Source of the DNA: Phytophthora sp. 'mugwort' | Lineage: Eukaryota > Oomycota > Peronosporomycetes > Peronosporales > Peronosporaceae | NCBI GenBank assembly: GCA_033558025.1 | Contig: JAUCEF010000005.1 | Span: 5,270,001-5,334,000, forward strand | Direction: 5' to 3' | DNA: 64,000 bases | Shown here: positions 9,758-64,000 of the stretch, one piece after another | How positions within the stretch are numbered: position 1 is the stretch's first letter | Layout: every line of letters starts with the position of its first letter | Translations under genes and position numbers: made by a program | Notes under the pieces: model-generated | Told to the model about the DNA's origin: nothing | The model's database searches: none | What the model saw: only the letters and a program-made list of their open reading frames with translations

Positions 9758-9792
9758 GTTGTGATTTCGCGGTTGGTTGTGGTCTTCAGCCT
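9758..9792 (+). promoter_or_regulatory. 5' flank of first array copy / left array boundary
   Basis: The array begins here with GTTGTGA, then from 9768 CGCGGTTGG as in every later unit. The only unit sequence left of the first tRNA is thus its immediate 5' flank. Eukaryotic tRNA genes start transcription a few bases upstream of the gene; no TATA-like element is evident. Confidence 0.6.
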
Positions 9793-9799
9793 TCCCATA

Positions 9800-9811
9800 T
9801 AGTCTAGGCGG
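9800..9811 (+). promoter_or_regulatory. Internal Pol III A box (representative, copy 1)
   Basis: TAGTCTAGGCGG fits the A-box pattern TRGYNNANNNG at tRNA positions 8-19 and overlaps the D arm. Present in every copy except 17, which lost the TA at its start. Bound by TFIIIC in eukaryotes. Confidence 0.85.
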
Positions 9812-9843
9812 TTAGGATAGCTGGCTCTCACCCAGCAGACCCG

Positions 9844-9854
9844 GGTTCGAGTCC
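9844..9854 (+). promoter_or_regulatory. Internal Pol III B box (representative, copy 1)
   Basis: GGTTCGAGTCC is a perfect match to the GGTTCGANTCC consensus, in the T arm. Altered to GGCTCGAGTCC in copies 9, 11, 12 and 13. Confidence 0.9.
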
Positions 9855-9869
9855 CGGTGTGGGAACATC

Positions 9870-9873
9870 TTTT
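9870..9873 (+). terminator. Pol III T4 terminator (representative, copy 1)
   Basis: TTTT starts 5 bp after the discriminator base. The same run follows every copy at the same spacing except copy 17, which has only TTT. Confidence 0.85.
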
Positions 9874-10350
9874 GCTCATGTTGCTGCTTCCCCCTTCGCG
9901 TATGGCGATCTTTCAAAGCGTTTGCGCCATGCACGTCACCCGCCTGCTGCACTGCATGCTGTCCGTAAACCACGAGAGCGCATTTCTTATGGTCATCCTG
10001 TTTGTCGGGACATACCTAGGCCAAGGCATAAAGTCCTTGTAACTACTGGCGATAGGGCCGTTCATTGGAACATCGTTCTTCGACGGGTGTGAGTGTATCG
10101 ATCCGCAGTATGGTCAGGTCGTCTCGTTGTGGCGCGTTACGGCGGCAAGATATCGTACCGTATCAGATGCAACAGTGCAGGAAATGGGTTGTGTCGGTGC
10201 GATCGAGGTCTTGGATTCAAGGAAAGGCAATCGACGTGAGAGGATCGGCGGTGTGTGTTTGGAGGCGCGTGGTTCGTGCGTGGCTTCAGCGATTGTGCGA
10301 GTGTGTCTTTGCTGAGTTGTGAGCTCGCGGTTGGTTGTGGTCTTCAGCCT

Positions 10351-10423
10351 TCCCATATAGTCTAGGCGGTTAGGATAGCTGGCTCTCACCCAGCAGACCC
10401 GGGTTCGAGTCCCGGTGTGGGAA
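10351..10423 (+). tRNA. tRNA-Glu(CTC), copy 2
   Basis: Consensus gene. 560 bp to next copy; reference alleles at sites a-g. Confidence 0.97.
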
Positions 10424-10910
10424 CATCTTTTGCTCATGTTGCTGCTTCCCCCTTCGCGTATGGCGATCTTTCAAAGCGTTTGCGCCATGCACGTCACCCG
10501 CCTGCTGCACTGCATGCTGTCCGTAAACCACGAGAGCTCGCATTTCTTATGGTCATCCTGTTTGTCGGGACATACCTAGGCCAAGGCATAAAGTCCTTGT
10601 AACTACTGGCGATAGGGCCGTTCATTGGAACATCGTTCTTCGACGGGTGTGAGTGTATCGATCCGCAGTATGGTCACGTCGTCTCGTTGTGGCGCGTTAC
10701 GGCGGCAAGATATCGTACCGTATCAGATGCAACAGTGCAGGAAATGGGTTGTGTCGGTGCGATCGAGGTCTTGGATTCAAGGAAAGGCAATCGACGTGAG
10801 AGGATCGGCGGTGTGTGTTTGGAGGCGCGTGGTTCGTGCGTGGCTTCAGCGATTGTGCGAGTGTGTCTTTGCTGAGTTGTGAGCTCGCGGTTGGTTGTGG
10901 TCTTCAGCCT

Positions 10911-10983
10911 TCCCATATAGTCTAGGCGGTTAGGATAGCTGGCTCTCACCCAGCAGACCCGGGTTCGAGTCCCGGTGTGGGAA
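10911..10983 (+). tRNA. tRNA-Glu(CTC), copy 3
   Basis: Consensus gene. 560-bp unit, reference alleles. Confidence 0.97.
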
Positions 10984-11470
10984 CATCTTTTGCTCATGTT
11001 GCTGCTTCCCCCTTCGCGTATGGCGATCTTTCAAAGCGTTTGCGCCATGCACGTCACCCGCCTGCTGCACTGCATGCTGTCCGTAAACCACGAGAGCTCG
11101 CATTTCTTATGGTCATCCTGTTTGTCGGGACATACCTAGGCCAAGGCATAAAGTCCTTGTAACTACTGGCGATAGGGCCGTTCATTGGAACATCGTTCTT
11201 CGACGGGTGTGAGTGTATCGATCCGCAGTATGGTCACGTCGTCTCGTTGTGGCGCGTTACGGCGGCAAGATATCGTACCGTATCAGATGCAACAGTGCAG
11301 GAAATGGGTTGTGTCGGTGCGATCGAGGTCTTGGATTCAAGGAAAGGCAATCGACGTGAGAGGATCGGCGGTGTGTGTTTGGAGGCGCGTGGTTCGTGCG
11401 TGGCTTCAGCGATTGTGCGAGTGTGTCTTTGCTGAGTTGTGAGCTCGCGGTTGGTTGTGGTCTTCAGCCT

Positions 11471-14270: not shown

Positions 14271-14343
14271 TCCCATATAGTCTAGGCGGTTAGGATAGCT
14301 GGCTCTCACCCAGCAGACCCGGGCTCGAGTCCCGGTGTGGGAA
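14271..14343 (+). tRNA. tRNA-Glu(CTC), copy 9, T54C variant
   Basis: T to C at 14324 changes the invariant T54 of the T loop and a core B-box base. Starts a run of 561-bp units; alternative allele at f. Confidence 0.93.
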
Positions 14344-14831
14344 CATCTTTTGCTCATGTTGCTGCTTCCCCCTTCGCGTATGGCGATCTTTCAAAGCGTT
14401 TGCGCCATGCACGTCACCCGCCTGCTGCACTGCATGCTGTCCGTAAACCACGAGAGCTCGCATTTCTTATGGTCAGTCCTGTTTGTCGGGACATACCTAG
14501 GCCAAGGCATAAAGTCCTTGTAACTACTGGCGATAGGGCCGTTCATTGGAACATCGTTCTTCGACGGGTGTGAGTGTATCGATCCGCAGTATGGTCACGT
14601 CGTCTCGTTGTGGCGCATTACGGCGGCAAGATATCGTACCGTATCAGATGCAACAGTGCATGAAATGGGTTGTGTCGGTGCGATCGAGGTCTTGGATTCA
14701 AGGAAAGGCAATCGACGTGAGAGGATCGGCGGTGTGTGTTTGGAGGCGCGTGGTTCGTGCGTGGCTTCAGCGATTGTGCGAGTGTGTCTTTGCTGAGTTG
14801 TGAGCTCGCGGTTGGTTGTGGTCTTCAGCCT

Positions 14832-14904
14832 TCCCATATAGTCTAGGCGGTTAGGATAGCTGGCTCTCACCCAGCAGACCCGGGTTCGAGTCCCGGTGTG
14901 GGAA
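14832..14904 (+). tRNA. tRNA-Glu(CTC), copy 10
   Basis: Consensus gene between variant copies 9 and 11. 561-bp unit; f alternative, ttcTttgg. Confidence 0.97.
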
Positions 14905-15392
14905 CATCTTTTGCTCATGTTGCTGCTTCCCCCTTCGCGTATGGCGATCTTTCAAAGCGTTTGCGCCATGCACGTCACCCGCCTGCTGCACTGCATGCTG
15001 TCCGTAAACCACGAGAGCTCGCATTTCTTATGGTCAGTCCTGTTTGTCGGGACATACCTAGGCCAAGGCATAAAGTCCTTGTAACTACTGGCGATAGGGC
15101 CGTTCTTTGGAACATCGTTCTTCGACGGGTGTGAGTGTATCGATCCGCAGTATGGTCACGTCGTCTCGTTGTGGCGCATTACGGCGGCAAGATATCGTAC
15201 CGTATCAGATGCAACAGTGCATGAAATGGGTTGTGTCGGTGCGATCGAGGTCTTGGATTCAAGGAAAGGCAATCGACGTGAGAGGATCGGCGGTGTGTGT
15301 TTGGAGGCGCGTGGTTCGTGCGTGGCTTCAGCGATTGTGCGAGTGTGTCTTTGCTGAGTTGTGAGCTCGCGGTTGGTTGTGGTCTTCAGCCT

Positions 15393-15465
15393 TCCCATAT
15401 AGTCTAGGCGGTTAGGATAGCTGGCTCTCACCCAGCAGACCCGGGCTCGAGTCCCGGTGTGGGAA
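15393..15465 (+). tRNA. tRNA-Glu(CTC), copy 11, T54C variant
   Basis: T to C at 15446, as in copy 9. 561-bp unit; f alternative. Confidence 0.93.
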
Positions 15466-15953
15466 CATCTTTTGCTCATGTTGCTGCTTCCCCCTTCGCG
15501 TATGGCGATCTTTCAAAGCGTTTGCGCCATGCACGTCACCCGCCTGCTGCACTGCATGCTGTCCGTAAACCACGAGAGCTCGCATTTCTTATGGTCAGTC
15601 CTGTTTGTCGGGACATACCTAGGCCAAGGCATAAAGTCCTTGTAACTACTGGCGATAGGGCCGTTCATTGGAACATCGTTCTTCGACGGGTGTGAGTGTA
15701 TCGATCCGCAGTATGGTCACGTCGTCTCGTTGTGGCGCATTACGGCGGCAAGATATCGTACCGTATCAGATGCAACAGTGCATGAAATGGGTTGTGTCGG
15801 TGCGATCGAGGTCTTGGATTCAAGGAAAGGCAATCGACGTGAGAGGATCGGCGGTGTGTGTTTGGAGGCGCGTGGTTCGTGCGTGGCTTCAGCGATTGTG
15901 CGAGTGTGTCTTTGCTGAGTTGTGAGCTCGCGGTTGGTTGTGGTCTTCAGCCT

Positions 15954-16026
15954 TCCCATATAGTCTAGGCGGTTAGGATAGCTGGCTCTCACCCAGCAGA
16001 CCCGGGCTCGAGTCCCGGTGTGGGAA
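15954..16026 (+). tRNA. tRNA-Glu(CTC), copy 12, T54C variant
   Basis: T to C at 16007. 561-bp unit; f alternative. Confidence 0.93.
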
Positions 16027-16514
16027 CATCTTTTGCTCATGTTGCTGCTTCCCCCTTCGCGTATGGCGATCTTTCAAAGCGTTTGCGCCATGCACGTCAC
16101 CCGCCTGCTGCACTGCATGCTGTCCGTAAACCACGAGAGCTCGCATTTCTTATGGTCAGTCCTGTTTGTCGGGACATACCTAGGCCAAGGCATAAAGTCC
16201 TTGTAACTACTGGCGATAGGGCCGTTCATTGGAACATCGTTCTTCGACGGGTGTGAGTGTATCGATCCGCAGTATGGTCACGTCGTCTCGTTGTGGCGCA
16301 TTACGGCGGCAAGATATCGTACCGTATCAGATGCAACAGTGCAGGAAATGGGTTGTGTCGGTGCGATCGAGGTCTTGGATTCAAGGAAAGGCAATCGACG
16401 TGAGAGGATCGGCGGTGTGTGTTTGGAGGCGCGTGGTTCGTGCGTGGCTTCAGCGATTGTGCGAGTGTGTCTTTGCTGAGTTGTGAGCTCGCGGTTGGTT
16501 GTGGTCTTCAGCCT

Positions 16515-16587
16515 TCCCATATAGTCTAGGCGGTTAGGATAGCTGGCTCTCACCCAGCAGACCCGGGCTCGAGTCCCGGTGTGGGAA
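16515..16587 (+). tRNA. tRNA-Glu(CTC), copy 13, T54C variant
   Basis: T to C at 16568. 561-bp unit with reference a-g alleles and a private change gttgAgagctc near its end. Confidence 0.93.
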
Positions 16588-17075
16588 CATCTTTTGCTCA
16601 TGTTGCTGCTTCCCCCTTCGCGTATGGCGATCTTTCAAAGCGTTTGCGCCATGCACGTCACCCGCCTGCTGCACTGCATGCTGTCCGTAAACCACGAGAG
16701 CTCGCATTTCTTATGGTCAGTCCTGTTTGTCGGGACATACCTAGGCCAAGGCATAAAGTCCTTGTAACTACTGGCGATAGGGCCGTTCATTGGAACATCG
16801 TTCTTCGACGGGTGTGAGTGTATCGATCCGCAGTATGGTCACGTCGTCTCGTTGTGGCGCGTTACGGCGGCAAGATATCGTACCGTATCAGATGCAACAG
16901 TGCAGGAAATGGGTTGTGTCGGTGCGATCGAGGTCTTGGATTCAAGGAAAGGCAATCGACGTGAGAGGATCGGCGGTGTGTGTTTGGAGGCGCGTGGTTC
17001 GTGCGTGGCTTCAGCGATTGTGCGAGTGTGTCTTTGCTGAGTTGAGAGCTCGCGGTTGGTTGTGGTCTTCAGCCT

Positions 17076-18270: not shown

Positions 18271-18758
18271 CATCTTTTGCTCATGTTGCTGCTTCCCCCT
18301 TCGCGTATGGCGCTCTTTCAAAGCGTTTGCGCATTGCACGTCACCCGCCTGCTGCACTGCATGCTGTCCGTAAACCACGAGAGCTCGCATTTCTTATGGT
18401 CAGTCCTGTTTGTCGGGACATACCTAGGCCAAGGCATAAAGTCCTTGTAACTACTGGCGATAGGGCCGTTCATTGGAACATCGTTCTTCGACGGGTGTGA
18501 GTGTATCGATCCGCAGTATGGTCACGTCGTCTCGTTGTGGCGCGTTACGGCGGCAAGATATCGTACCGTATCAGATGCAACAGTGCAGGAAATGGGTTGT
18601 GTCGGTGCGATCGAGGTCTTGGATTCAAGGAAAGGCAATCGACGTGAGAGGATCGGCGGTGTGTGTTTAGAGGCGCGTGGTTCGTGCGTGGCTTCAGCGA
18701 TTGTGCGAGTGTGTCTTTGCTGAGTTGTGAGCTCGCGGTTGGTTGTGGTCTTCAGCCT

Positions 18759-18829
18759 TCCCATAGTCTAGGCGGTTAGGATAGCTGGCTCTCACCCAGC
18801 AGACCCGGGTTCGAGTCCCGGTGTGGGAA
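18759..18829 (+). pseudogene. Degenerate tRNA-Glu(CTC), copy 17 (71 nt)
   Basis: A 2-bp deletion turns CCCATATAGTC into CCCATAGTC, removing the two bases joining acceptor and D stems (T8-A9) and damaging the A box. The downstream T run is reduced to TTT. The rest, including anticodon CTC, is intact. Loss of position 8 and of the terminator makes it the only clearly broken copy. 558 bp to the next gene; f alternative. Confidence 0.9.
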
Positions 18830-18833
18830 CATC

Positions 18834-18836
18834 TTT
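18834..18836 (+). terminator. Weakened terminator (TTT) after copy 17
   Basis: One T lost relative to the T4 after every other copy. Three T residues are usually insufficient for Pol III termination, so any transcript would read into the spacer. Confidence 0.7.
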
Positions 18837-32280: not shown

Positions 32281-32768
32281 CATCTTTTGCTCATGTTGCT
32301 GCTTCCCCCTTCGCGTATGGCGATCTTTCAAAGCGTTTGCGCCATGCACGTCACCCGCCTGCTGCACTGCATGCTGTCCGTAAACCACGAGAGCTCGCAT
32401 TTCTTATGGTCATCCTGTTTGTCGGGACATACCTAGGCCAAGGCATAAAGTCCTTGTAACTACTGGCGATAGGGCCGTTCATTGGAACATCGTTCTTCGA
32501 CGGGTGTGAGTGTATCGATCCGCAGTATGGTCACGTCGTCTCGTTGTGGCGCGTTACGGCGGCAAGATATCGTACCGTATCAGATGCAGCAGTGCATGAA
32601 ATGGGTTGTGTCGGTGCGATCGAGGTCTTGGATTCAAGGAAAGGCAATCGACGTGAGAGGATCGGCGGTGTGTGTTTGGAGGCGCGTGGTTCGTGCGTGG
32701 CTTCAGCGATTGTGCGAGTGTGTCTTTTGCTGAGTTGTGAGCTCGCGGTTGGTTGTGGTCTTCAGCCT

Positions 32769-32841
32769 TCCCATATAGTCTAGGCGGTTAGGATAGCTGG
32801 CTCTCACCCAGCAGACCCGGGTTCGAGTCCCGGTGTGGGAA
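32769..32841 (+). tRNA. tRNA-Glu(CTC), copy 42
   Basis: Consensus gene. 560-bp unit, reference alleles. Confidence 0.97.
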
Positions 32842-33328
32842 CATCTTTTGCTCATGTTGCTGCTTCCCCCTTCGCGTATGGCGATCTTTCAAAGCGTTTG
32901 CGCCATGCACGTCACCCGCCTGCTGCACTGCATGCTGTCCGTAAACCACGAGAGCTCGCATTTCTTATGGTCATCCTGTTTGTCGGGACATACCTAGGCC
33001 AAGGCATAAAGTCCTTGTAACTACTGGCGATAGGGCCGTTCATTGGAACATCGTTCTTCGACGGGTGTGAGTGTATCGATCCGCAGTATGGTCACGTCGT
33101 CTCGTTGTGGCGCGTTACGGCGGCAAGATATCGTACCGTATCAGATGCAACAGTGCATGAAATGGGTTGTGTCGGTGCGATCGAGGTCTTGGATTCAAGG
33201 AAAGGCAATCGACGTGAGAGGATCGGCGGTGTGTGTTTGGAGGCGCGTGGTTCGTGCGTGGCTTCAGCGATTGTGCGAGTGTGTCTTTGCTGAGTTGTGA
33301 GCTCGCGGTTGGTTGTGGTCTTCAGCCT

Positions 33329-33401
33329 TCCCATATAGTCTAGGCGGTTAGGATAGCTGGCTCTCACCCAGCAGACCCGGGTTCGAGTCCCGGTGTGGGA
33401 A
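33329..33401 (+). tRNA. tRNA-Glu(CTC), copy 43
   Basis: Consensus gene. 560-bp unit, reference alleles. Confidence 0.97.
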
Positions 33402-33888
33402 CATCTTTTGCTCATGTTGCTGCTTCCCCCTTCGCGTATGGCGATCTTTCAAAGCGTTTGCGCCATGCACGTCACCCGCCTGCTGCACTGCATGCTGTCC
33501 GTAAACCACGAGAGCTCGCATTTCTTATGGTCATCCTGTTTGTCGGGACATACCTAGGCCAAGGCATAAAGTCCTTGTAACTACTGGCGATAGGGCCGTT
33601 CATTGGAACATCGTTCTTCGACGGGTGTGAGTGTATCGATCCGCAGTATGGTCACGTCGTCTCGTTGTGGCGCGTTACGGCGGCAAGATATCGTACCGTA
33701 TCAGATGCAACAGTGCATGAAATGGGTTGTGTCGGTGCGATCGAGGTCTTGGATTCAAGGAAAGGCAATCGACGTGAGAGGATCGGCGGTGTGTGTTTGG
33801 AGGCGCGTGGTTCGTGCGTGGCTTCAGCGATTGTGCGAGTGTGTCTTTGCTGAGTTGTGAGCTCGCGGTTGGTTGTGGTCTTCAGCCT

Positions 33889-33961
33889 TCCCATATAGTC
33901 TAGGCGGTTAGGATAGCTGGCTCTCACCCAGCAGACCCGGGTTCGAGTCCCGGTGTGGGAA
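33889..33961 (+). tRNA. tRNA-Glu(CTC), copy 44
   Basis: Consensus gene. 560-bp unit, reference alleles. Confidence 0.97.
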
Positions 33962-34448
33962 CATCTTTTGCTCATGTTGCTGCTTCCCCCTTCGCGTATG
34001 GCGATCTTTCAAAGCGTTTGCGCCATGCACGTCACCCGCCTGCTGCACTGCATGCTGTCCGTAAACCACGAGAGCTCGCATTTCTTATGGTCATCCTGTT
34101 TGTCGGGACATACCTAGGCCAAGGCATAAAGTCCTTGTAACTACTGGCGATAGGGCCGTTCATTGGAACATCGTTCTTCGACGGGTGTGAGTGTATCGAT
34201 CCGCAGTATGGTCACGTCGTCTCGTTGTGGCGCGTTACGGCGGCAAGATATCGTACCGTATCAGATGCAACAGTGCATGAAATGGGTTGTGTCGGTGCGA
34301 TCGAGGTCTTGGATTCAAGGAAAGGCAATCGACGTGAGAGGATCGGCGGTGTGTGTTTGGAGGCGCGTGGTTCGTGCGTGGCTTCAGCGATTGTGCGAGT
34401 GTGTCTTTGCTGAGTTGTGAGCTCGCGGTTGGTTGTGGTCTTCAGCCT

Positions 34449-34521
34449 TCCCATATAGTCTAGGCGGTTAGGATAGCTGGCTCTCACCCAGCAGACCCGG
34501 GTTCGAGTCCCGGTGTGGGAA
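34449..34521 (+). tRNA. tRNA-Glu(CTC), copy 45
   Basis: Consensus gene. 561-bp unit; b alternative, gcaGcagtg, and cgacCtgag at 34895, which recurs in unit 52. Confidence 0.97.
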
Positions 34522-35009
34522 CATCTTTTGCTCATGTTGCTGCTTCCCCCTTCGCGTATGGCGATCTTTCAAAGCGTTTGCGCATTGCACGTCACCCGCC
34601 TGCTGCACTGCATGCTGTCCGTAAACCACGAGAGCTCGCATTTCTTATGGTCAGTCCTGTTTGTCGGGACATACCTAGGCCAAGGCATAAAGTCCTTGTA
34701 ACTACTGGCGATAGGGCCGTTCATTGGAACATCGTTCTTCGACGGGTGTGAGTGTATCGATCCGCAGTATGGTCACGTCGTCTCGTTGTGGCGCGTTACG
34801 GCGGCAAGATATCGTACCGTATCAGATGCAGCAGTGCATGAAATGGGTTGTGTCGGTGCGATCGAGGTCTTGGATTCAAGGAAAGGCAATCGACCTGAGA
34901 GGATCGGCGGTGTGTGTTTGGAGGCGCGTGGTTCGTGCGTGGCTTCAGCGATTGTGCGAGTGTGTCTTTGCTGAGTTGTGAGCTCGCGGTTGGTTGTGGT
35001 CTTCAGCCT

Positions 35010-35082
35010 TCCCATATAGTCTAGGCGGTTAGGATAGCTGGCTCTCACCCAGCAGACCCGGGTTCGAGTCCCGGTGTGGGAA
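35010..35082 (+). tRNA. tRNA-Glu(CTC), copy 46
   Basis: Consensus gene. 561-bp unit; b alternative, gcaGcagtg. Confidence 0.97.
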
Positions 35083-35570
35083 CATCTTTTGCTCATGTTG
35101 CTGCTTCCCCCTTCGCGTATGGCGATCTTTCAAAGCGTTTGCGCATTGCACGTCACCCGCCTGCTGCACTGCATGCTGTCCGTAAACCACGAGAGCTCGC
35201 ATTTCTTATGGTCAGTCCTGTTTGTCGGGACATACCTAGGCCAAGGCATAAAGTCCTTGTAACTACTGGCGATAGGGCCGTTCATTGGAACATCGTTCTT
35301 CGACGGGTGTGAGTGTATCGATCCGCAGTATGGTCACGTCGTCTCGTTGTGGCGCGTTACGGCGGCAAGATATCGTACCGTATCAGATGCAGCAGTGCAT
35401 GAAATGGGTTGTGTCGGTGCGATCGAGGTCTTGGATTCAAGGAAAGGCAATCGACGTGAGAGGATCGGCGGTGTGTGTTTGGAGGCGCGTGGTTCGTGCG
35501 TGGCTTCAGCGATTGTGCGAGTGTGTCTTTGCTGAGTTGTGAGCTCGCGGTTGGTTGTGGTCTTCAGCCT

Positions 35571-35643
35571 TCCCATATAGTCTAGGCGGTTAGGATAGCT
35601 GGCTCTCACCCAGCAGACCCGGGTTCGAGTCCCGGTGTGGGAA
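35571..35643 (+). tRNA. tRNA-Glu(CTC), copy 47
   Basis: Consensus gene. 561-bp unit; aaccGcgag at 35750, shared with units 54 and 82. Confidence 0.97.
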
Positions 35644-36131
35644 CATCTTTTGCTCATGTTGCTGCTTCCCCCTTCGCGTATGGCGATCTTTCAAAGCGTT
35701 TGCGCCATGCACGTCACCCGCCTGCTGCACTGCATGCTGTCCGTAAACCGCGAGAGCTCGCATTTCTTATGGTCAGTCCTGTTTGTCGGGACATACCTAG
35801 GCCAAGGCATAAAGTCCTTGTAACTACTGGCGATAGGGCCGTTCATTGGAACATCGTTCTTCGACGGGTGTGAGTGTATCGATCCGCAGTATGGTCACGT
35901 CGTCTCGTTGTGGCGCGTTACGGCGGCAAGATATCGTACCGTATCAGATGCAACAGTGCATGAAATGGGTTGTGTCGGTGCGATCGAGGTCTTGGATTCA
36001 AGGAAAGGCAATCGACGTGAGAGGATCGGCGGTGTGTGTTTGGAGGCGCGTGGTTCGTGCGTGGCTTCAGCGATTGTGCGAGTGTGTCTTTGCTGAGTTG
36101 TGAGCTCGCGGTTGGTTGTGGTCTTCAGCCT

Positions 36132-36204
36132 TCCCATATAGTCTAGGCGGTTAGGATAGCTGGCTCTCACCCAGCAGACCCGGGTTCGAGTCCCGGTGTG
36201 GGAA
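36132..36204 (+). tRNA. tRNA-Glu(CTC), copy 48
   Basis: Consensus gene. 560-bp unit; first unit with the alternative g allele (36491). Confidence 0.97.
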
Positions 36205-36691
36205 CATCTTTTGCTCATGTTGCTGCTTCCCCCTTCGCGTATGGCGATCTTTCAAAGCGTTTGCGCCATGCACGTCACCCGCCTGCTGCACTGCATGCTG
36301 TCCGTAAACCACGAGAGCTCGCATTTCTTATGGTCATCCTGTTTGTCGGGACATACCTAGGCCAAGGCATAAAGTCCTTGTAACTACTGGCGATAGGGCC
36401 GTTCATTGGAACATCGTTCTTCGACGGGTGTGAGTGTATCGATCCGCAGTATGGTCACGTCGTCTCGTTGTGGCGCGTTACGGCGGCAAGGTATCGTACC
36501 GTATCAGATGCAACAGTGCATGAAATGGGTTGTGTCGGTGCGATCGAGGTCTTGGATTCAAGGAAAGGCAATCGACGTGAGAGGATCGGCGGTGTGTGTT
36601 TGGAGGCGCGTGGTTCGTGCGTGGCTTCAGCGATTGTGCGAGTGTGTCTTTGCTGAGTTGTGAGCTCGCGGTTGGTTGTGGTCTTCAGCCT

Positions 36692-36764: not shown

Positions 36765-37251
36765 CATCTTTTGCTCATGTTGCTGCTTCCCCCTTCGCGT
36801 ATGGCGATCTTTCAAAGCGTTTGCGCCATGCACGTCACCCGCCTGCTGCACTGCATGCTGTCCGTAAACCACGAGAGCTCGCATTTCTTATGGTCATCCT
36901 GTTTGTCGGGACATACCTAGGCCAAGGCATAAAGTCCTTGTAACTACTGGCGATAGGGCCGTTCATTGGAACATCGTTCTTCGACGGGTGTGAGTGTATC
37001 GATCCGCAGTATGGTCACGTCGTCTCGTTGTGGCGCGTTACGGCGGCAAGATATCGTACCGTATCAGATGCAACAGTGCATGAAATGGGTTGTGTCGGTG
37101 CGATCGAGGTCTTGGATTCAAGGAAAGGCAATCGACGTGAGAGGATCGGCGGTGTGTGTTTGGAGGCGCGTGGTTCGTGCGTGGCTTCAGCGATTGTGCG
37201 AGTGTGTCTTTGCTGAGTTGTGAGCTCGCGGTTGGTTGTGGTCTTCAGCCT

Positions 37252-37324
37252 TCCCATATAGTCTAGGCGGTTAGGATAGCTGGCTCTCACCCAGCAGACC
37301 CGGGTTCGAGTCCCGGTGTGGGAA
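37252..37324 (+). tRNA. tRNA-Glu(CTC), copy 50
   Basis: Consensus gene. 560-bp unit, reference alleles. Confidence 0.97.
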
Positions 37325-37811
37325 CATCTTTTGCTCATGTTGCTGCTTCCCCCTTCGCGTATGGCGATCTTTCAAAGCGTTTGCGCCATGCACGTCACCC
37401 GCCTGCTGCACTGCATGCTGTCCGTAAACCACGAGAGCTCGCATTTCTTATGGTCATCCTGTTTGTCGGGACATACCTAGGCCAAGGCATAAAGTCCTTG
37501 TAACTACTGGCGATAGGGCCGTTCATTGGAACATCGTTCTTCGACGGGTGTGAGTGTATCGATCCGCAGTATGGTCACGTCGTCTCGTTGTGGCGCGTTA
37601 CGGCGGCAAGATATCGTACCGTATCAGATGCAACAGTGCATGAAATGGGTTGTGTCGGTGCGATCGAGGTCTTGGATTCAAGGAAAGGCAATCGACGTGA
37701 GAGGATCGGCGGTGTGTGTTTGGAGGCGCGTGGTTCGTGCGTGGCTTCAGCGATTGTGCGAGTGTGTCTTTGCTGAGTTGTGAGCTCGCGGTTGGTTGTG
37801 GTCTTCAGCCT

Positions 37812-37884
37812 TCCCATATAGTCTAGGCGGTTAGGATAGCTGGCTCTCACCCAGCAGACCCGGGTTCGAGTCCCGGTGTGGGAA
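37812..37884 (+). tRNA. tRNA-Glu(CTC), copy 51
   Basis: Consensus gene. 560-bp unit, reference alleles. Confidence 0.97.
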
Positions 37885-38371
37885 CATCTTTTGCTCATGT
37901 TGCTGCTTCCCCCTTCGCGTATGGCGATCTTTCAAAGCGTTTGCGCCATGCACGTCACCCGCCTGCTGCACTGCATGCTGTCCGTAAACCACGAGAGCTC
38001 GCATTTCTTATGGTCATCCTGTTTGTCGGGACATACCTAGGCCAAGGCATAAAGTCCTTGTAACTACTGGCGATAGGGCCGTTCATTGGAACATCGTTCT
38101 TCGACGGGTGTGAGTGTATCGATCCGCAGTATGGTCACGTCGTCTCGTTGTGGCGCGTTACGGCGGCAAGATATCGTACCGTATCAGATGCAACAGTGCA
38201 TGAAATGGGTTGTGTCGGTGCGATCGAGGTCTTGGATTCAAGGAAAGGCAATCGACGTGAGAGGATCGGCGGTGTGTGTTTGGAGGCGCGTGGTTCGTGC
38301 GTGGCTTCAGCGATTGTGCGAGTGTGTCTTTGCTGAGTTGTGAGCTCGCGGTTGGTTGTGGTCTTCAGCCT

Positions 38372-38444
38372 TCCCATATAGTCTAGGCGGTTAGGATAGC
38401 TGGCTCTCACCCAGCAGACCCGGGTTCGAGTCCCGGTGTGGGAA
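38372..38444 (+). tRNA. tRNA-Glu(CTC), copy 52
   Basis: Consensus gene. 561-bp unit repeating unit 45 (b alternative, cgacCtgag at 38818). Confidence 0.97.
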
Positions 38445-38932
38445 CATCTTTTGCTCATGTTGCTGCTTCCCCCTTCGCGTATGGCGATCTTTCAAAGCGT
38501 TTGCGCATTGCACGTCACCCGCCTGCTGCACTGCATGCTGTCCGTAAACCACGAGAGCTCGCATTTCTTATGGTCAGTCCTGTTTGTCGGGACATACCTA
38601 GGCCAAGGCATAAAGTCCTTGTAACTACTGGCGATAGGGCCGTTCATTGGAACATCGTTCTTCGACGGGTGTGAGTGTATCGATCCGCAGTATGGTCACG
38701 TCGTCTCGTTGTGGCGCGTTACGGCGGCAAGATATCGTACCGTATCAGATGCAGCAGTGCATGAAATGGGTTGTGTCGGTGCGATCGAGGTCTTGGATTC
38801 AAGGAAAGGCAATCGACCTGAGAGGATCGGCGGTGTGTGTTTGGAGGCGCGTGGTTCGTGCGTGGCTTCAGCGATTGTGCGAGTGTGTCTTTGCTGAGTT
38901 GTGAGCTCGCGGTTGGTTGTGGTCTTCAGCCT

Positions 38933-39005
38933 TCCCATATAGTCTAGGCGGTTAGGATAGCTGGCTCTCACCCAGCAGACCCGGGTTCGAGTCCCGGTGT
39001 GGGAA
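38933..39005 (+). tRNA. tRNA-Glu(CTC), copy 53
   Basis: Consensus gene. 561-bp unit repeating unit 46. Confidence 0.97.
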
Positions 39006-39493
39006 CATCTTTTGCTCATGTTGCTGCTTCCCCCTTCGCGTATGGCGATCTTTCAAAGCGTTTGCGCATTGCACGTCACCCGCCTGCTGCACTGCATGCT
39101 GTCCGTAAACCACGAGAGCTCGCATTTCTTATGGTCAGTCCTGTTTGTCGGGACATACCTAGGCCAAGGCATAAAGTCCTTGTAACTACTGGCGATAGGG
39201 CCGTTCATTGGAACATCGTTCTTCGACGGGTGTGAGTGTATCGATCCGCAGTATGGTCACGTCGTCTCGTTGTGGCGCGTTACGGCGGCAAGATATCGTA
39301 CCGTATCAGATGCAGCAGTGCATGAAATGGGTTGTGTCGGTGCGATCGAGGTCTTGGATTCAAGGAAAGGCAATCGACGTGAGAGGATCGGCGGTGTGTG
39401 TTTGGAGGCGCGTGGTTCGTGCGTGGCTTCAGCGATTGTGCGAGTGTGTCTTTGCTGAGTTGTGAGCTCGCGGTTGGTTGTGGTCTTCAGCCT

Positions 39494-39566
39494 TCCCATA
39501 TAGTCTAGGCGGTTAGGATAGCTGGCTCTCACCCAGCAGACCCGGGTTCGAGTCCCGGTGTGGGAA
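39494..39566 (+). tRNA. tRNA-Glu(CTC), copy 54
   Basis: Consensus gene. 561-bp unit repeating unit 47 (aaccGcgag at 39673). Confidence 0.97.
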
Positions 39567-40054
39567 CATCTTTTGCTCATGTTGCTGCTTCCCCCTTCGC
39601 GTATGGCGATCTTTCAAAGCGTTTGCGCCATGCACGTCACCCGCCTGCTGCACTGCATGCTGTCCGTAAACCGCGAGAGCTCGCATTTCTTATGGTCAGT
39701 CCTGTTTGTCGGGACATACCTAGGCCAAGGCATAAAGTCCTTGTAACTACTGGCGATAGGGCCGTTCATTGGAACATCGTTCTTCGACGGGTGTGAGTGT
39801 ATCGATCCGCAGTATGGTCACGTCGTCTCGTTGTGGCGCGTTACGGCGGCAAGATATCGTACCGTATCAGATGCAACAGTGCATGAAATGGGTTGTGTCG
39901 GTGCGATCGAGGTCTTGGATTCAAGGAAAGGCAATCGACGTGAGAGGATCGGCGGTGTGTGTTTGGAGGCGCGTGGTTCGTGCGTGGCTTCAGCGATTGT
40001 GCGAGTGTGTCTTTGCTGAGTTGTGAGCTCGCGGTTGGTTGTGGTCTTCAGCCT

Positions 40055-40127
40055 TCCCATATAGTCTAGGCGGTTAGGATAGCTGGCTCTCACCCAGCAG
40101 ACCCGGGTTCGAGTCCCGGTGTGGGAA
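40055..40127 (+). tRNA. tRNA-Glu(CTC), copy 55
   Basis: Consensus gene. 560-bp unit repeating unit 48 (g alternative at 40414). Confidence 0.97.
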
Positions 40128-40614
40128 CATCTTTTGCTCATGTTGCTGCTTCCCCCTTCGCGTATGGCGATCTTTCAAAGCGTTTGCGCCATGCACGTCA
40201 CCCGCCTGCTGCACTGCATGCTGTCCGTAAACCACGAGAGCTCGCATTTCTTATGGTCATCCTGTTTGTCGGGACATACCTAGGCCAAGGCATAAAGTCC
40301 TTGTAACTACTGGCGATAGGGCCGTTCATTGGAACATCGTTCTTCGACGGGTGTGAGTGTATCGATCCGCAGTATGGTCACGTCGTCTCGTTGTGGCGCG
40401 TTACGGCGGCAAGGTATCGTACCGTATCAGATGCAACAGTGCATGAAATGGGTTGTGTCGGTGCGATCGAGGTCTTGGATTCAAGGAAAGGCAATCGACG
40501 TGAGAGGATCGGCGGTGTGTGTTTGGAGGCGCGTGGTTCGTGCGTGGCTTCAGCGATTGTGCGAGTGTGTCTTTGCTGAGTTGTGAGCTCGCGGTTGGTT
40601 GTGGTCTTCAGCCT

Positions 40615-46849: not shown

Positions 46850-47336
46850 CATCTTTTGCTCATGTTGCTGCTTCCCCCTTCGCGTATGGCGATCTTTCAA
46901 AGCGTTTGCGCCATGCACGTCACCCGCCTGCTGCACTGCATGCTGTCCGTAAACCACGAGAGCTCGCATTTCTTATGGTCATCCTGTTTGTCGGGACATA
47001 CCTAGGCCAAGGCATAAAGTCCTCGTAACTACTGGCGATAGGGCCGTTCTTTGGAACATCGTTCTTCGACGGGTGTGAGTGTATCGATCCGCAGTATGGT
47101 CACGTCGTCTCGTTGTGGCGCGTTACGGCGGCAAGATATCGTACCGTATCAGATGCAACAGTGCATGAAATGGGTTGTGTCGGTGCGATCGAGGTCTTGG
47201 ATTCAAGGAAAGGCAATCGACGTGAGAGGATCGGCGGTGTGTGTTTGGAGGCGCGTGGTTCGTGCGTGGCTTCAGCGATTGTGCGAGTGTGTCTTTGCTG
47301 AGTTGTGAGCTCGCGGTTGGTTGTGGTCTTCAGCCT

Positions 47337-47409
47337 TCCCATATAGTCTAGGCGGTTAGGATAGCTGGCTCTCACCCAGCAGACCCGGGTTCGAGTCCCG
47401 GTGTGGGAA
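47337..47409 (+). tRNA. tRNA-Glu(CTC), copy 68
   Basis: Consensus gene. 519-bp unit: its spacer lacks 41 bp immediately before the next gene; d alternative. Confidence 0.97.
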
Positions 47410-47855
47410 CATCTTTTGCTCATGTTGCTGCTTCCCCCTTCGCGTATGGCGATCTTTCAAAGCGTTTGCGCCATGCACGTCACCCGCCTGCTGCACTGCA
47501 TGCTGTCCGTAAACCACGAGAGCTCGCATTTCTTATGGTCATCCTGTTTGTCGGGACATACCTAGGCCAAGGCATAAAGTCCTCGTAACTACTGGCGATA
47601 GGGCCGTTCTTTGGAACATCGTTCTTCGACGGGTGTGAGTGTATCGATCCGCAGTATGGTCACGTCGTCTCGTTGTGGCGCGTTACGGCGGCAAGATATC
47701 GTACCGTATCAGATGCAACAGTGCATGAAATGGGTTGTGTCGGTGCGATCGAGGTCTTGGATTCAAGGAAAGGCAATCGACGTGAGAGGATCGGCGGTGT
47801 GTGTTTGGAGGCGCGTGGTTCGTGCGTGGCTTCAGCGATTGTGCGCCTCCAGCCT

Positions 47856-47928
47856 TCCCATATAGTCTAGGCGGTTAGGATAGCTGGCTCTCACCCAGCA
47901 GACCCGGGTTCGAGTCCCGGTGTGGGAA
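47856..47928 (+). tRNA. tRNA-Glu(CTC), copy 69
   Basis: Consensus gene whose normal 5' flank is replaced by gtgcgcctccagcct. 519-bp unit again; d alternative. Confidence 0.96.
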
Positions 47929-48374
47929 CATCTTTTGCTCATGTTGCTGCTTCCCCCTTCGCGTATGGCGATCTTTCAAAGCGTTTGCGCCATGCACGTC
48001 ACCCGCCTGCTGCACTGCATGCTGTCCGTAAACCACGAGAGCTCGCATTTCTTATGGTCATCCTGTTTGTCGGGACATACCTAGGCCAAGGCATAAAGTC
48101 CTCGTAACTACTGGCGATAGGGCCGTTCTTTGGAACATCGTTCTTCGACGGGTGTGAGTGTATCGATCCGCAGTATGGTCACGTCGTCTCGTTGTGGCGC
48201 GTTACGGCGGCAAGATATCGTACCGTATCAGATGCAACAGTGCAGGAAATGGGTTGTGTCGGTGCGATCGAGGTCTTGGATTCAAGGAAAGGCAATCGAC
48301 GTGAGAGGATCGGCGGTGTGTGTTTGGAGGCGCGTGGTTCGTGCGTGGCTTCAGCGATTGTGCGCCTCCAGCCT

Positions 48375-48447
48375 TCCCATATAGTCTAGGCGGTTAGGAT
48401 AGCTGGCTCTCACCCAGCAGACCCGGGTTCGAGTCCCGGTGTGGGAA
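48375..48447 (+). tRNA. tRNA-Glu(CTC), copy 70
   Basis: Consensus gene with the shortened 5' flank. 560-bp unit; d and g alternative. Confidence 0.96.
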
Positions 48448-48934
48448 CATCTTTTGCTCATGTTGCTGCTTCCCCCTTCGCGTATGGCGATCTTTCAAAG
48501 CGTTTGCGCCATGCACGTCACCCGCCTGCTGCACTGCATGCTGTCCGTAAACCACGAGAGCTCGCATTTCTTATGGTCATCCTGTTTGTCGGGACATACC
48601 TAGGCCAAGGCATAAAGTCCTCGTAACTACTGGCGATAGGGCCGTTCATTGGAACATCGTTCTTCGACGGGTGTGAGTGTATCGATCCGCAGTATGGTCA
48701 CGTCGTCTCGTTGTGGCGCGTTACGGCGGCAAGGTATCGTACCGTATCAGATGCAACAGTGCAGGAAATGGGTTGTGTCGGTGCGATCGAGGTCTTGGAT
48801 TCAAGGAAAGGCAATCGACGTGAGAGGATCGGCGGTGTGTGTTTGGAGGCGCGTGGTTCGTGCGTGGCTTCAGCGATTGTGCGAGTGTGTCTTTGCTGAG
48901 TTGTGAGCTCGCGGTTGGTTGTGGTCTTCAGCCT

Positions 48935-49007
48935 TCCCATATAGTCTAGGCGGTTAGGATAGCTGGCTCTCACCCAGCAGACCCGGGTTCGAGTCCCGGT
49001 GTGGGAA
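48935..49007 (+). tRNA. tRNA-Glu(CTC), copy 71
   Basis: Consensus gene. 560-bp unit; d alternative. Confidence 0.97.
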
Positions 49008-49494
49008 CATCTTTTGCTCATGTTGCTGCTTCCCCCTTCGCGTATGGCGATCTTTCAAAGCGTTTGCGCCATGCACGTCACCCGCCTGCTGCACTGCATG
49101 CTGTCCGTAAACCACGAGAGCTCGCATTTCTTATGGTCATCCTGTTTGTCGGGACATACCTAGGCCAAGGCATAAAGTCCTCGTAACTACTGGCGATAGG
49201 GCCGTTCTTTGGAACATCGTTCTTCGACGGGTGTGAGTGTATCGATCCGCAGTATGGTCACGTCGTCTCGTTGTGGCGCGTTACGGCGGCAAGATATCGT
49301 ACCGTATCAGATGCAACAGTGCATGAAATGGGTTGTGTCGGTGCGATCGAGGTCTTGGATTCAAGGAAAGGCAATCGACGTGAGAGGATCGGCGGTGTGT
49401 GTTTGGAGGCGCGTGGTTCGTGCGTGGCTTCAGCGATTGTGCGAGTGTGTCTTTGCTGAGTTGTGAGCTCGCGGTTGGTTGTGGTCTTCAGCCT

Positions 49495-49567
49495 TCCCAT
49501 ATAGTCTAGGCGGTTAGGATAGCTGGCTCTCACCCAGCAGACCCGGGTTCGAGTCCCGGTGTGGGAA
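49495..49567 (+). tRNA. tRNA-Glu(CTC), copy 72
   Basis: Consensus gene. 519-bp unit (41-bp deletion before the next gene); d alternative. Confidence 0.97.
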
Positions 49568-50013
49568 CATCTTTTGCTCATGTTGCTGCTTCCCCCTTCG
49601 CGTATGGCGATCTTTCAAAGCGTTTGCGCCATGCACGTCACCCGCCTGCTGCACTGCATGCTGTCCGTAAACCACGAGAGCTCGCATTTCTTATGGTCAT
49701 CCTGTTTGTCGGGACATACCTAGGCCAAGGCATAAAGTCCTCGTAACTACTGGCGATAGGGCCGTTCTTTGGAACATCGTTCTTCGACGGGTGTGAGTGT
49801 ATCGATCCGCAGTATGGTCACGTCGTCTCGTTGTGGCGCGTTACGGCGGCAAGATATCGTACCGTATCAGATGCAACAGTGCAGGAAATGGGTTGTGTCG
49901 GTGCGATCGAGGTCTTGGATTCAAGGAAAGGCAATCGACGTGAGAGGATCGGCGGTGTGTGTTTGGAGGCGCGTGGTTCGTGCGTGGCTTCAGCGATTGT
50001 GCGCCTCCAGCCT

Positions 50014-50086
50014 TCCCATATAGTCTAGGCGGTTAGGATAGCTGGCTCTCACCCAGCAGACCCGGGTTCGAGTCCCGGTGTGGGAA
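50014..50086 (+). tRNA. tRNA-Glu(CTC), copy 73
   Basis: Consensus gene with the shortened 5' flank. 519-bp unit; d alternative. Confidence 0.96.
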
Positions 50087-50532
50087 CATCTTTTGCTCAT
50101 GTTGCTGCTTCCCCCTTCGCGTATGGCGATCTTTCAAAGCGTTTGCGCCATGCACGTCACCCGCCTGCTGCACTGCATGCTGTCCGTAAACCACGAGAGC
50201 TCGCATTTCTTATGGTCATCCTGTTTGTCGGGACATACCTAGGCCAAGGCATAAAGTCCTCGTAACTACTGGCGATAGGGCCGTTCTTTGGAACATCGTT
50301 CTTCGACGGGTGTGAGTGTATCGATCCGCAGTATGGTCACGTCGTCTCGTTGTGGCGCGTTACGGCGGCAAGATATCGTACCGTATCAGATGCAACAGTG
50401 CAGGAAATGGGTTGTGTCGGTGCGATCGAGGTCTTGGATTCAAGGAAAGGCAATCGACGTGAGAGGATCGGCGGTGTGTGTTTGGAGGCGCGTGGTTCGT
50501 GCGTGGCTTCAGCGATTGTGCGCCTCCAGCCT

Positions 50533-61172: not shown

Positions 61173-61245
61173 TCCCATATAGTCTAGGCGGTTAGGATAG
61201 CTGGCTCTCACCCAGCAGACCCGGGTTCGAGTCCCGGTGTGGGAA
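61173..61245 (+). tRNA. tRNA-Glu(CTC), copy 93
   Basis: Consensus gene. 560-bp unit; d alternative. Confidence 0.97.
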
Positions 61246-61732
61246 CATCTTTTGCTCATGTTGCTGCTTCCCCCTTCGCGTATGGCGATCTTTCAAAGCG
61301 TTTGCGCCATGCACGTCACCCGCCTGCTGCACTGCATGCTGTCCGTAAACCACGAGAGCTCGCATTTCTTATGGTCATCCTGTTTGTCGGGACATACCTA
61401 GGCCAAGGCATAAAGTCCTCGTAACTACTGGCGATAGGGCCGTTCTTTGGAACATCGTTCTTCGACGGGTGTGAGTGTATCGATCCGCAGTATGGTCACG
61501 TCGTCTCGTTGTGGCGCGTTACGGCGGCAAGATATCGTACCGTATCAGATGCAACAGTGCATGAAATGGGTTGTGTCGGTGCGATCGAGGTCTTGGATTC
61601 AAGGAAAGGCAATCGACGTGAGAGGATCGGCGGTGTGTGTTTGGAGGCGCGTGGTTCGTGCGTGGCTTCAGCGATTGTGCGAGTGTGTCTTTGCTGAGTT
61701 GTGAGCTCGCGGTTGGTTGTGGTCTTCAGCCT

Positions 61733-61805
61733 TCCCATATAGTCTAGGCGGTTAGGATAGCTGGCTCTCACCCAGCAGACCCGGGTTCGAGTCCCGGTGT
61801 GGGAA
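61733..61805 (+). tRNA. tRNA-Glu(CTC), copy 94
   Basis: Consensus gene. 560-bp unit; d alternative. Confidence 0.97.
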
Positions 61806-62292
61806 CATCTTTTGCTCATGTTGCTGCTTCCCCCTTCGCGTATGGCGATCTTTCAAAGCGTTTGCGCCATGCACGTCACCCGCCTGCTGCACTGCATGCT
61901 GTCCGTAAACCACGAGAGCTCGCATTTCTTATGGTCATCCTGTTTGTCGGGACATACCTAGGCCAAGGCATAAAGTCCTCGTAACTACTGGCGATAGGGC
62001 CGTTCTTTGGAACATCGTTCTTCGACGGGTGTGAGTGTATCGATCCGCAGTATGGTCACGTCGTCTCGTTGTGGCGCGTTACGGCGGCAAGATATCGTAC
62101 CGTATCAGATGCAACAGTGCATGAAATGGGTTGTGTCGGTGCGATCGAGGTCTTGGATTCAAGGAAAGGCAATCGACGTGAGAGGATCGGCGGTGTGTGT
62201 TTGGAGGCGCGTGGTTCGTGCGTGGCTTCAGCGATTGTGCGAGTGTGTCTTTGCTGAGTTGTGAGCTCGCGGTTGGTTGTGGTCTTCAGCCT

Positions 62293-62365
62293 TCCCATAT
62301 AGTCTAGGCGGTTAGGATAGCTGGCTCTCACCCAGCAGACCCGGGTTCGAGTCCCGGTGTGGGAA
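62293..62365 (+). tRNA. tRNA-Glu(CTC), copy 95
   Basis: Consensus gene. 561-bp unit (gtcaGtcc returns after a long run of 560s); d alternative. Confidence 0.97.
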
Positions 62366-62853
62366 CATCTTTTGCTCATGTTGCTGCTTCCCCCTTCGCG
62401 TATGGCGATCTTTCAAAGCGTTTGCGCCATGCACGTCACCCGCCTGCTGCACTGCATGCTGTCCGTAAACCACGAGAGCTCGCATTTCTTATGGTCAGTC
62501 CTGTTTGTCGGGACATACCTAGGCCAAGGCATAAAGTCCTCGTAACTACTGGCGATAGGGCCGTTCATTGGAACATCGTTCTTCGACGGGTGTGAGTGTA
62601 TCGATCCGCAGTATGGTCACGTCGTCTCGTTGTGGCGCGTTACGGCGGCAAGATATCGTACCGTATCAGATGCAACAGTGCATGAAATGGGTTGTGTCGG
62701 TGCGATCGAGGTCTTGGATTCAAGGAAAGGCAATCGACGTGAGAGGATCGGCGGTGTGTGTTTGGAGGCGCGTGGTTCGTGCGTGGCTTCAGCGATTGTG
62801 CGAGTGTGTCTTTGCTGAGTTGTGAGCTCGCGGTTGGTTGTGGTCTTCAGCCT

Positions 62854-62926
62854 TCCCATATAGTCTAGGCGGTTAGGATAGCTGGCTCTCACCCAGCAGA
62901 CCCGGGTTCGAGTCCCGGTGTGGGAA
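62854..62926 (+). tRNA. tRNA-Glu(CTC), copy 96
   Basis: Consensus gene. 560-bp unit; d alternative. Confidence 0.97.
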
Positions 62927-63413
62927 CATCTTTTGCTCATGTTGCTGCTTCCCCCTTCGCGTATGGCGATCTTTCAAAGCGTTTGCGCCATGCACGTCAC
63001 CCGCCTGCTGCACTGCATGCTGTCCGTAAACCACGAGAGCTCGCATTTCTTATGGTCATCCTGTTTGTCGGGACATACCTAGGCCAAGGCATAAAGTCCT
63101 CGTAACTACTGGCGATAGGGCCGTTCTTTGGAACATCGTTCTTCGACGGGTGTGAGTGTATCGATCCGCAGTATGGTCACGTCGTCTCGTTGTGGCGCGT
63201 TACGGCGGCAAGATATCGTACCGTATCAGATGCAACAGTGCATGAAATGGGTTGTGTCGGTGCGATCGAGGTCTTGGATTCAAGGAAAGGCAATCGACGT
63301 GAGAGGATCGGCGGTGTGTGTTTGGAGGCGCGTGGTTCGTGCGTGGCTTCAGCGATTGTGCGAGTGTGTCTTTGCTGAGTTGTGAGCTCGCGGTTGGTTG
63401 TGGTCTTCAGCCT

Positions 63414-63486
63414 TCCCATATAGTCTAGGCGGTTAGGATAGCTGGCTCTCACCCAGCAGACCCGGGTTCGAGTCCCGGTGTGGGAA
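63414..63486 (+). tRNA. tRNA-Glu(CTC), copy 97
   Basis: Consensus gene. 561-bp unit; d alternative. Confidence 0.97.
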
Positions 63487-63974
63487 CATCTTTTGCTCAT
63501 GTTGCTGCTTCCCCCTTCGCGTATGGCGATCTTTCAAAGCGTTTGCGCCATGCACGTCACCCGCCTGCTGCACTGCATGCTGTCCGTAAACCACGAGAGC
63601 TCGCATTTCTTATGGTCAGTCCTGTTTGTCGGGACATACCTAGGCCAAGGCATAAAGTCCTCGTAACTACTGGCGATAGGGCCGTTCATTGGAACATCGT
63701 TCTTCGACGGGTGTGAGTGTATCGATCCGCAGTATGGTCACGTCGTCTCGTTGTGGCGCGTTACGGCGGCAAGATATCGTACCGTATCAGATGCAACAGT
63801 GCATGAAATGGGTTGTGTCGGTGCGATCGAGGTCTTGGATTCAAGGAAAGGCAATCGACGTGAGAGGATCGGCGGTGTGTGTTTGGAGGCGCGTGGTTCG
63901 TGCGTGGCTTCAGCGATTGTGCGAGTGTGTCTTTGCTGAGTTGTGAGCTCGCGGTTGGTTGTGGTCTTCAGCCT

Positions 63975-64000
63975 TCCCATATAGTCTAGGCGGTTAGGAT
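63975..64000 (+). tRNA. tRNA-Glu(CTC), copy 98, cut by window edge
   Basis: The first 26 nt (acceptor 5' strand and D arm) match the consensus; the rest lies outside the window, showing the array continues. Confidence 0.9.

Follow-up and report, generated by a model that had tools for sequence, protein, structure and literature searches.

Why would a genome carry a long, uninterrupted series of one and the same transfer RNA (tRNA) gene, and do the members of such a series still serve translation? This question is raised by a stretch of 64,000 nucleotides of contig C5 of Phytophthora sp. 'mugwort' (hereafter the window; C5:5,270,001-5,334,000, within an 86.26-Mb assembly of 154 contigs), which contains head-to-tail copies of a gene for the glutamate (Glu) tRNA with anticodon CTC. 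The copies are part of an array of 169 genes that lies at a single locus. Most probably they represent true RNA polymerase III (Pol III) genes, some of them active, which would supply tRNA-Glu(CTC), have been multiplied and homogenized by unequal exchange, and owe their number mostly to recombination, as a by-product.

The array and its unit

ARAGORN recognized 97 complete tRNA-Glu(CTC) genes in the window, from position 9793 to 63487 and all on the forward strand, and found no tRNA other than Glu(CTC) in these 64 kb. The window edge cuts a 98th gene, which starts at 63975. The extent of the series was checked with the same program in 194 kb (the window plus 30 kb to its left and 100 kb to its right), and this yielded 169 genes, every one of them a tRNA-Glu(CTC) gene on the forward strand, from C5:5,279,793 to 5,373,834. 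Both ends of the 94-kb array lie inside one contig of 8.27 Mb and are bordered by other sequence. At the right end there is a broken 170th copy that stops within the gene, at the anticodon arm. The start-to-start spacing of the 96 gene pairs in the window is 560 bp (62 pairs), 561 bp (28), 519 bp (4), 559 bp (1) or 558 bp (1), and 158 of the 168 intervals in the whole array measure 560 or 561 bp. The preliminary description of this stretch had placed at least 98 tandem copies of a ~560-bp unit at 9758..64000. That count holds if the edge-cut copy is included (97 + 1), and the repeat homology indeed starts at 9758; a single isoacceptor, arranged head to tail and running past the window edge, is likewise what the longer scan revealed.

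The array is far above chance expectation, considering the tRNA scores in Rfam (each of the four genes scanned reached 61.1 bits, with E 4e-12) together with a control pattern, the exact gene reversed, which has 0 matches in the genome. The Rfam scan covered 3.2 kb, from the left flank into the first units. The coordinates of a representative unit are given in Table 1, where the A and B boxes of the gene were assigned on the basis of the general motif definitions and are presumably the internal Pol III promoter elements. The run of four T residues behind the gene is present in 168 of the 169 units and is shortened to TTT in one.

Two other candidate products of the spacer were considered and rejected. 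The first was a hidden non-coding RNA: no family other than tRNA scored above the Rfam cut-off in the 3.2 kb scanned, and the one match to a group II intron, which is located in the left flank, stayed with 13.5 bits far under its cut-off of 49. The second was a protein. The spacer contains a forward open reading frame (ORF) of 85 aa in 153 of the 168 units examined, and an antisense ORF. The start of the latter was found in 167 of 168 units, and in 155 of these its length is 107 aa. Neither of the two had a match in Pfam. We do not regard them as genes, because many of the variants in both alter amino acids and because the antisense ORF crosses the tRNA gene itself.

The only recognizable source of tRNA-Glu(CTC)

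The relation between the array and the rest of the genome was determined by pattern counts, which are complete totals over both strands of the 86-Mb assembly. The exact 73-nt gene occurs 158 times on the forward and 0 times on the reverse strand, which equals the 158 occurrences in the array. A 40-nt piece of the gene body with at most 3 mismatches gave 169 forward and 0 reverse matches (169 in the array), and a loose pattern, composed of the anticodon loop CTCTCAC, 12 free bases and the B box, gave 164 and 0 (164 in the array). The five array genes outside the loose pattern are four with the change T54C and one with C33T. A 40-nt piece of the spacer, again with at most 3 mismatches, was found 169 times on the forward strand, 0 times on the reverse strand and 169 times in the array. 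Hence, neither a Glu(CTC) gene, by any of the three gene searches, nor a copy of the tested spacer piece, at up to 3 mismatches, was found outside the array in the 86-Mb assembly. Since the genome-wide counts equal those of the array, the latter constitutes the only recognizable tRNA-Glu(CTC) locus of the genome, barring a strongly divergent gene, and the unit does not behave as a dispersed short interspersed nuclear element (SINE).

The last point is of importance because the authors of a study on Peronospora effusa propose that the tRNA clusters of that species are formed by SINE-like transposable elements with a tRNA-like head (PMC11540230). The argument is based there on the fast expansion and contraction of the clusters and on ORFs in the spacers, and the present unit, in which a tRNA sequence is followed by a 452-bp body, is within the size range given there. 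Against such an origin stand the absence of dispersed copies of spacer and gene body (169 forward and 0 reverse for each, all in the array), and the completeness of the tRNA, which is moreover the only Glu(CTC) tRNA found. The layout of head and body can be read either way, as a 452-bp spacer does follow the tRNA, but the latter is a complete gene with its own TTTT behind it. In addition, only tRNA passes the Rfam cut-off in the scanned part, and the two spacer ORFs lack a Pfam match and carry many amino-acid-changing variants. We therefore consider it very improbable that the unit is a SINE-like element.

Variation among the units and homogenization

The genes in the array are nearly uniform: 158 of the 169 are identical, and within the window 89 of the 97 match the 73-nt gene exactly. 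The eight variant genes of the window carry T54C (4), G64A (2), C33T (1) or a deletion of two nucleotides at gene positions 5-6 (1). Array-wide there are 11 variant genes (in units 9, 11, 12, 13, 17, 59, 62, 65, 151, 154 and 166), in each of which either one of six single sites is altered or the 2-nt deletion is present. The rare variants T54C, G64A and C33T each mark known units. The copy at 18757, which has the 2-nt deletion, is probably non-functional, to judge from its sequence.

Complete units show more diversity, with 71 distinct sequences among the 169. When the four units of 519 bp are set aside, the remaining 165 have a mean identity of 99.3% and differ on average at 3.8 of 561 positions. 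The variants are not randomly ordered. Adjacent units differ at a mean of 2.70 positions, versus 3.78 when the order is shuffled (the lowest value in 2000 shuffles was 3.43), and a block of seven units (42-48) is exactly repeated by the next seven (49-55), versus a longest run of 4 in 300 shuffles. Such an arrangement of variants is the one expected from local unequal crossing-over or gene conversion.

An exact multi-unit duplication could also come from misassembly, and PMC9584435, on the tRNA arrays of Phytophthora infestans, cautions against such assembly errors. Nevertheless, a copy number that is merely an artefact of the assembly is improbable, considering that the 71 distinct sequences among the 169 units occur in a structured order, that the array is flanked on both sides by other sequence in a contig of 8.27 Mb, and that in P. 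infestans the read depth matched the assembled copy numbers for representative families (PMC9584435).

The four 519-bp units lack some 41 bp ahead of the next gene. The genes behind them (47856, 48375, 50014 and 50533) are therefore preceded by 60 bp of another sequence, and they provide a natural test of the importance of the 5' flank. Tandem Repeats Finder (score >=50, periods up to 500) returned 0 rows for the window.

Table 1. Features of the tRNA-Glu(CTC) array and its left border, in window coordinates.
Feature	Position	Strand	Basis
Part of the 94-kb tRNA-Glu(CTC) array inside the window (169 units in total; C5:5,279,758 to ~5,374,360)	9758..64000	+	
Left flank; unit homology starts abruptly at ~9758, 35 bp 5' of the first gene	9640..9757	+	
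Representative 560-bp unit: 35 bp 5' flank, 73-nt tRNA gene, 452 bp downstream spacer	10316..10875	+	
tRNA-Glu(CTC) gene with a full cloverleaf; gene positions 35-37 form the anticodon CTC	10351..10423	+	ARAGORN; Rfam RF00005, 61.1 bits
Presumed internal Pol III A box (tagtctaggcgg)	10358..10369	+	sequence
Presumed internal Pol III B box (ggttcgagtcc)	10402..10412	+	sequence
TTTT, likely Pol III terminator, bases 5-8 after the gene	10428..10431	+	
Stretch with four T54C copies (change in B box and T-loop; genes 14271, 15393, 15954, 16515)	14271..16588	+	
Gene copy with 2-nt deletion in the acceptor stem (gene positions 5-6)	18757..18830	+	
Seven-unit block, units 42-48, exactly repeated by the next seven units	32734..36656	+	
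Second copy of the seven-unit block, units 49-55	36657..40579	+	
Region containing all four units of 519 bp (68, 69, 72, 73)	47302..50497	+	

Other tRNA arrays in the assembly

A second glutamate tRNA, Glu(TTC), is also encoded by an array on contig C5, which extends from 5,084,622 and is largely on the opposite strand. It contains two forms of the gene: steps of 353 bp correspond to an intact gene and steps of 344 bp to a gene that lacks 9 nt. In the 6 kb at C5:5,084,001-5,090,000, 3 of the 16 copies are intact and interleaved with deleted ones, and ARAGORN calls just those 3. Genome-wide, the pattern from anticodon to B box of the intact gene has 130 matches (129 reverse and 1 forward, the latter at C5:5,209,067), and a 36-nt piece spanning the deletion has 199 exact matches; among the matches listed, intact and deleted copies occur in the same stretch of C5. 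The deletion (GGAT...TCACC) takes out the 5' strand of the anticodon stem together with neighbouring bases, where a shared T makes the loss of an anticodon base itself ambiguous. The deleted copies are thus predicted to be unable to form the anticodon stem, and those in the 6 kb keep both the A and the B box. Since the deleted copies are in the majority (199 versus 130), homogenization can evidently spread broken genes, which argues that in this array it is not ruled by the need for the product. The Glu(TTC) array thereby allows a test of whether homogenization disregards function.

These numbers also bear on dosage selection, by which the array would be kept large because tRNA-Glu(CTC), or fragments of it, are needed in very great amounts. 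In nine flanking ORFs of our own choice glutamate is specified by 290 GAG and 125 GAA codons (GAG in 290 of 415), so that the Glu(CTC) tRNA reads the commoner codon, and the CTC genes number 169, as compared with the 130 matches of the pattern for intact Glu(TTC). A demand for fragments would be in line with the regulatory small RNA derived from tRNA-Glu(CTC), tsRNA-GluCTC, that is reported for Phytophthora sojae (PMC5177647). However, the relation between gene number and codon use in P. infestans is only modest (R = 0.41), and the families most expanded in that species read infrequent codons (PMC9584435). Moreover, dosage selection should oppose the excess of deleted over intact-pattern Glu(TTC) copies. 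On balance we consider it unlikely that demand maintains the array.

The assembly contains further tRNA arrays. An Ile(AAT) array on the minus strand of C5 covers at least 1,702,083-1,746,690 in steps of mostly 540 or 544 bp, and four of its genes were read in C5:1,700,001-1,704,000. On contig C1 (3,737,001-3,743,000) an array mixes Gly(CCC) with Gly(TCC) genes, of which four and two, respectively, were read. Contig C4 carries two series of B boxes that are mostly 1164 bp apart, one at 184,611-227,682 on the reverse strand and one from 279,010 to at least 315,109 on the forward strand; here a single tRNA unit may have given rise to two arrays in inverted orientation. Two B-box patterns, GGTTCGANTCC and GGTTCGANCCC, have 1073+921 and 384+794 matches genome-wide, versus 63+71 and 96+79 for the respective reversed patterns. 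The counts indicate a large number of tRNA genes and provide no total.

In a genome-wide search with RF00005, 63 of the 9329 candidates were scored, and 62 of these 63 matches had an identical score, 66.2 bits. The 63 matches are all located on contigs C15 or higher, and the 62 are distributed over many of the contigs C15 to C115, with one or two on each. The uniform matches possibly represent organelle fragments or a repeat.

The flanking regions

An ORF of 619 aa that flanks the array connects the contig to the genus. Its first five matches are proteins of Phytophthora species, with 73-77% identity over 96-99% of the length, and further matches are found in P. sojae (80% over 68%) and in a JGI protein (80% over 87%). 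The match in P. sojae does not support that species as the host. The matches in Globisporangium, Pythium and Lagenidium are at 43-48%, and none of the 54 matches exceeds 80% (7993 candidates scored). As the best matches are in Phytophthora, the host is a Phytophthora relative, in agreement with the oomycete origin that had been surmised from the letters.

The left flank has Pfam matches to a retroviral SH3-like domain (189-434) and to DDE_Tnp_4 (6828-7088), both on the reverse strand, which on the strength of these domains are remnants of transposons. The right flank (C5:5,374,001-5,434,000) contains many long ORFs, which by their Pfam matches include aconitase and ribosomal protein L3. The position of this one array, between a flank with transposon remnants and a flank rich in ORFs, would suit a chromosome-structural or boundary element that acts mainly by binding transcription factor IIIC (TFIIIC), independent of the tRNA product. 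The persistence of A and B boxes in the 9-nt-deleted Glu(TTC) copies of the 6 kb points the same way, and the authors of PMC9584435 raise chromatin organization as a question. Yet the B box is changed in 4 of the 169 copies and hence is not strictly kept, and we hold a role that is mainly structural to be improbable. It is likewise very improbable that the arrays as a group are kept for some purpose other than decoding, be it TFIIIC-based chromosome organization or Pol III transcripts other than tRNA. If that were true, the 199 deleted Glu(TTC) units on the same contig would be the selected product and not the result of decay.

Function and copy number

The explanation we favour, that of tRNA genes multiplied by recombination, combines these observations as follows. 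The 169 self-contained Pol III genes, in units of 560 bp, form the single recognizable locus for tRNA-Glu(CTC). Unequal crossing-over and gene conversion probably made the array grow and keep its uniformity, part of the copies would be transcribed and furnish the tRNA that reads GAG, and the copy number is probably set for the larger part by recombination, at a level above the need of the cell. With a copy number above need many copies would be redundant and possibly silent. The integrity of the genes, their confinement to one locus and their local homogenization can be read directly from the DNA. The tsRNA-GluCTC of P. sojae implies that tRNA-Glu(CTC) is expressed in the genus; it says nothing of the present array. 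The preliminary description considered, by inference, a bulk supply of tRNA or tRNA fragments, an insulator and a neutral satellite. Of these, neutral expansion is the best supported, but the units do not constitute a satellite divorced from function, because no other Glu(CTC) genes were found.

Several points weigh against this explanation. A Glu(CTC) gene so divergent that neither the 40-nt piece of the gene body nor the loose pattern matches it would have gone undetected. Furthermore, a Glu(TTC) tRNA could decode GAG through wobble, and the status of sole source is for that reason no proof that the array is essential. Finally, neither Fisher tests nor sliding windows detected purifying selection on the arrayed gene. 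Variable sites make up 6 of the 73 positions of the gene versus 51 of the other 487 positions of the unit (p 0.68, Fisher test). Part of these 51 sites stems from the changed 5' flanks after the 519-bp units, and without the genes behind those units the comparison is 6/73 versus 35/487 (p 0.81; 163 units). The nucleotide diversity is 0.0016 in the gene versus 0.0060 in the rest, and it is equally low in 87 of 565 sliding windows of 73 nt. Because the share of variable sites is not significantly lower in the gene and its low diversity is matched by other windows, selection on the gene is not shown.

Comparison with known systems

The preliminary description called a long single-isoacceptor array unusual in an oomycete. 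This is contradicted by the further arrays in the same genome and by reports on P. infestans (PMC9584435) and P. effusa (PMC11540230). P. infestans has 7,519 chromosomal tRNA genes and another 3,537 on unplaced contigs; about 64% of its tRNA genes are in tandem arrays with a one-gene unit and 36% in arrays with units of two or three genes (PMC9584435). An example is formed by 271 copies of tRNA-Cys(GCA) in a unit of 513 nt. The monomeric arrays of that species have one anticodon, a head-to-tail arrangement, a unit of ~0.5 kb and hundreds of copies on one chromosome, and their units are near-identical, with few variants that are grouped and often close to one edge (PMC9584435). The present array fits this description. 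It differs in the identity of the tRNA, Glu(CTC) versus the examples Cys(GCA), Leu(AAG) and Met(CAT), and in the sequence of the unit; in addition, the P. infestans arrays are backed by read depth, whereas the present copy number is that of the assembly. An oomycete Glu(CTC) array is not named in the literature text found, figures and supplements being outside its scope.

In P. effusa 33-39 clusters were reported per isolate, with 10-970 genes each and sizes that vary between isolates (PMC11540230). They resemble the present array in forming large tandem blocks of cluster-specific units with near-identical tRNA genes inside a cluster. However, in the Arg cluster of P. effusa the spacer is more variable than the tRNA genes, whereas here gene and spacer have a similar share of variable sites, and, while the authors call the clusters of P. 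effusa SINE-like, dispersed copies were not seen here and the units are the sole source found of their tRNA.

More distant parallels are found outside the oomycetes. Entamoeba histolytica has nearly all its tRNA genes in tandem arrays of mostly uniform units, some with one tRNA (His, Gly), and Glu(CTC) is arrayed there as well (PMC2652664). In this different lineage, however, Glu(CTC) is part of mixed units such as [VME5], unlike the single-isoacceptor unit described here, and in E. histolytica and Entamoeba dispar short tandem repeats separate the genes (PMC2652664), none of which was reported by Tandem Repeats Finder in the window. The tRNA clusters of Arabidopsis likewise consist of tandem units that have grown by duplication and include redundant copies (PMC12308677, PMC10701932). 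Its tRNA-Cys cluster has four genes (PMC10701932), and in its SYY cluster, for which silencing in most tissues is reported, Ser genes occur together with Tyr genes (PMC12308677). The human tRNA tandem repeat at 1q23.3 is also a variable-number repeat of tRNA-bearing units, but with units of 7.3 kb, 9-43 copies and binding of CTCF (PMC4041453).

Considering its one anticodon on one strand, regular sub-kilobase unit, single locus, near-identical units and host family, the array is a well-delimited example of the known monomeric tandem tRNA arrays of the Peronosporaceae. It adds to these one array that is fully bounded and of which the variants have been read out. As such it bears on the published disagreement whether the oomycete clusters consist of tRNA genes or of SINE-like elements, and the identity as tRNA genes is favoured here because the array is the sole Glu(CTC) source found and dispersed copies were not seen.

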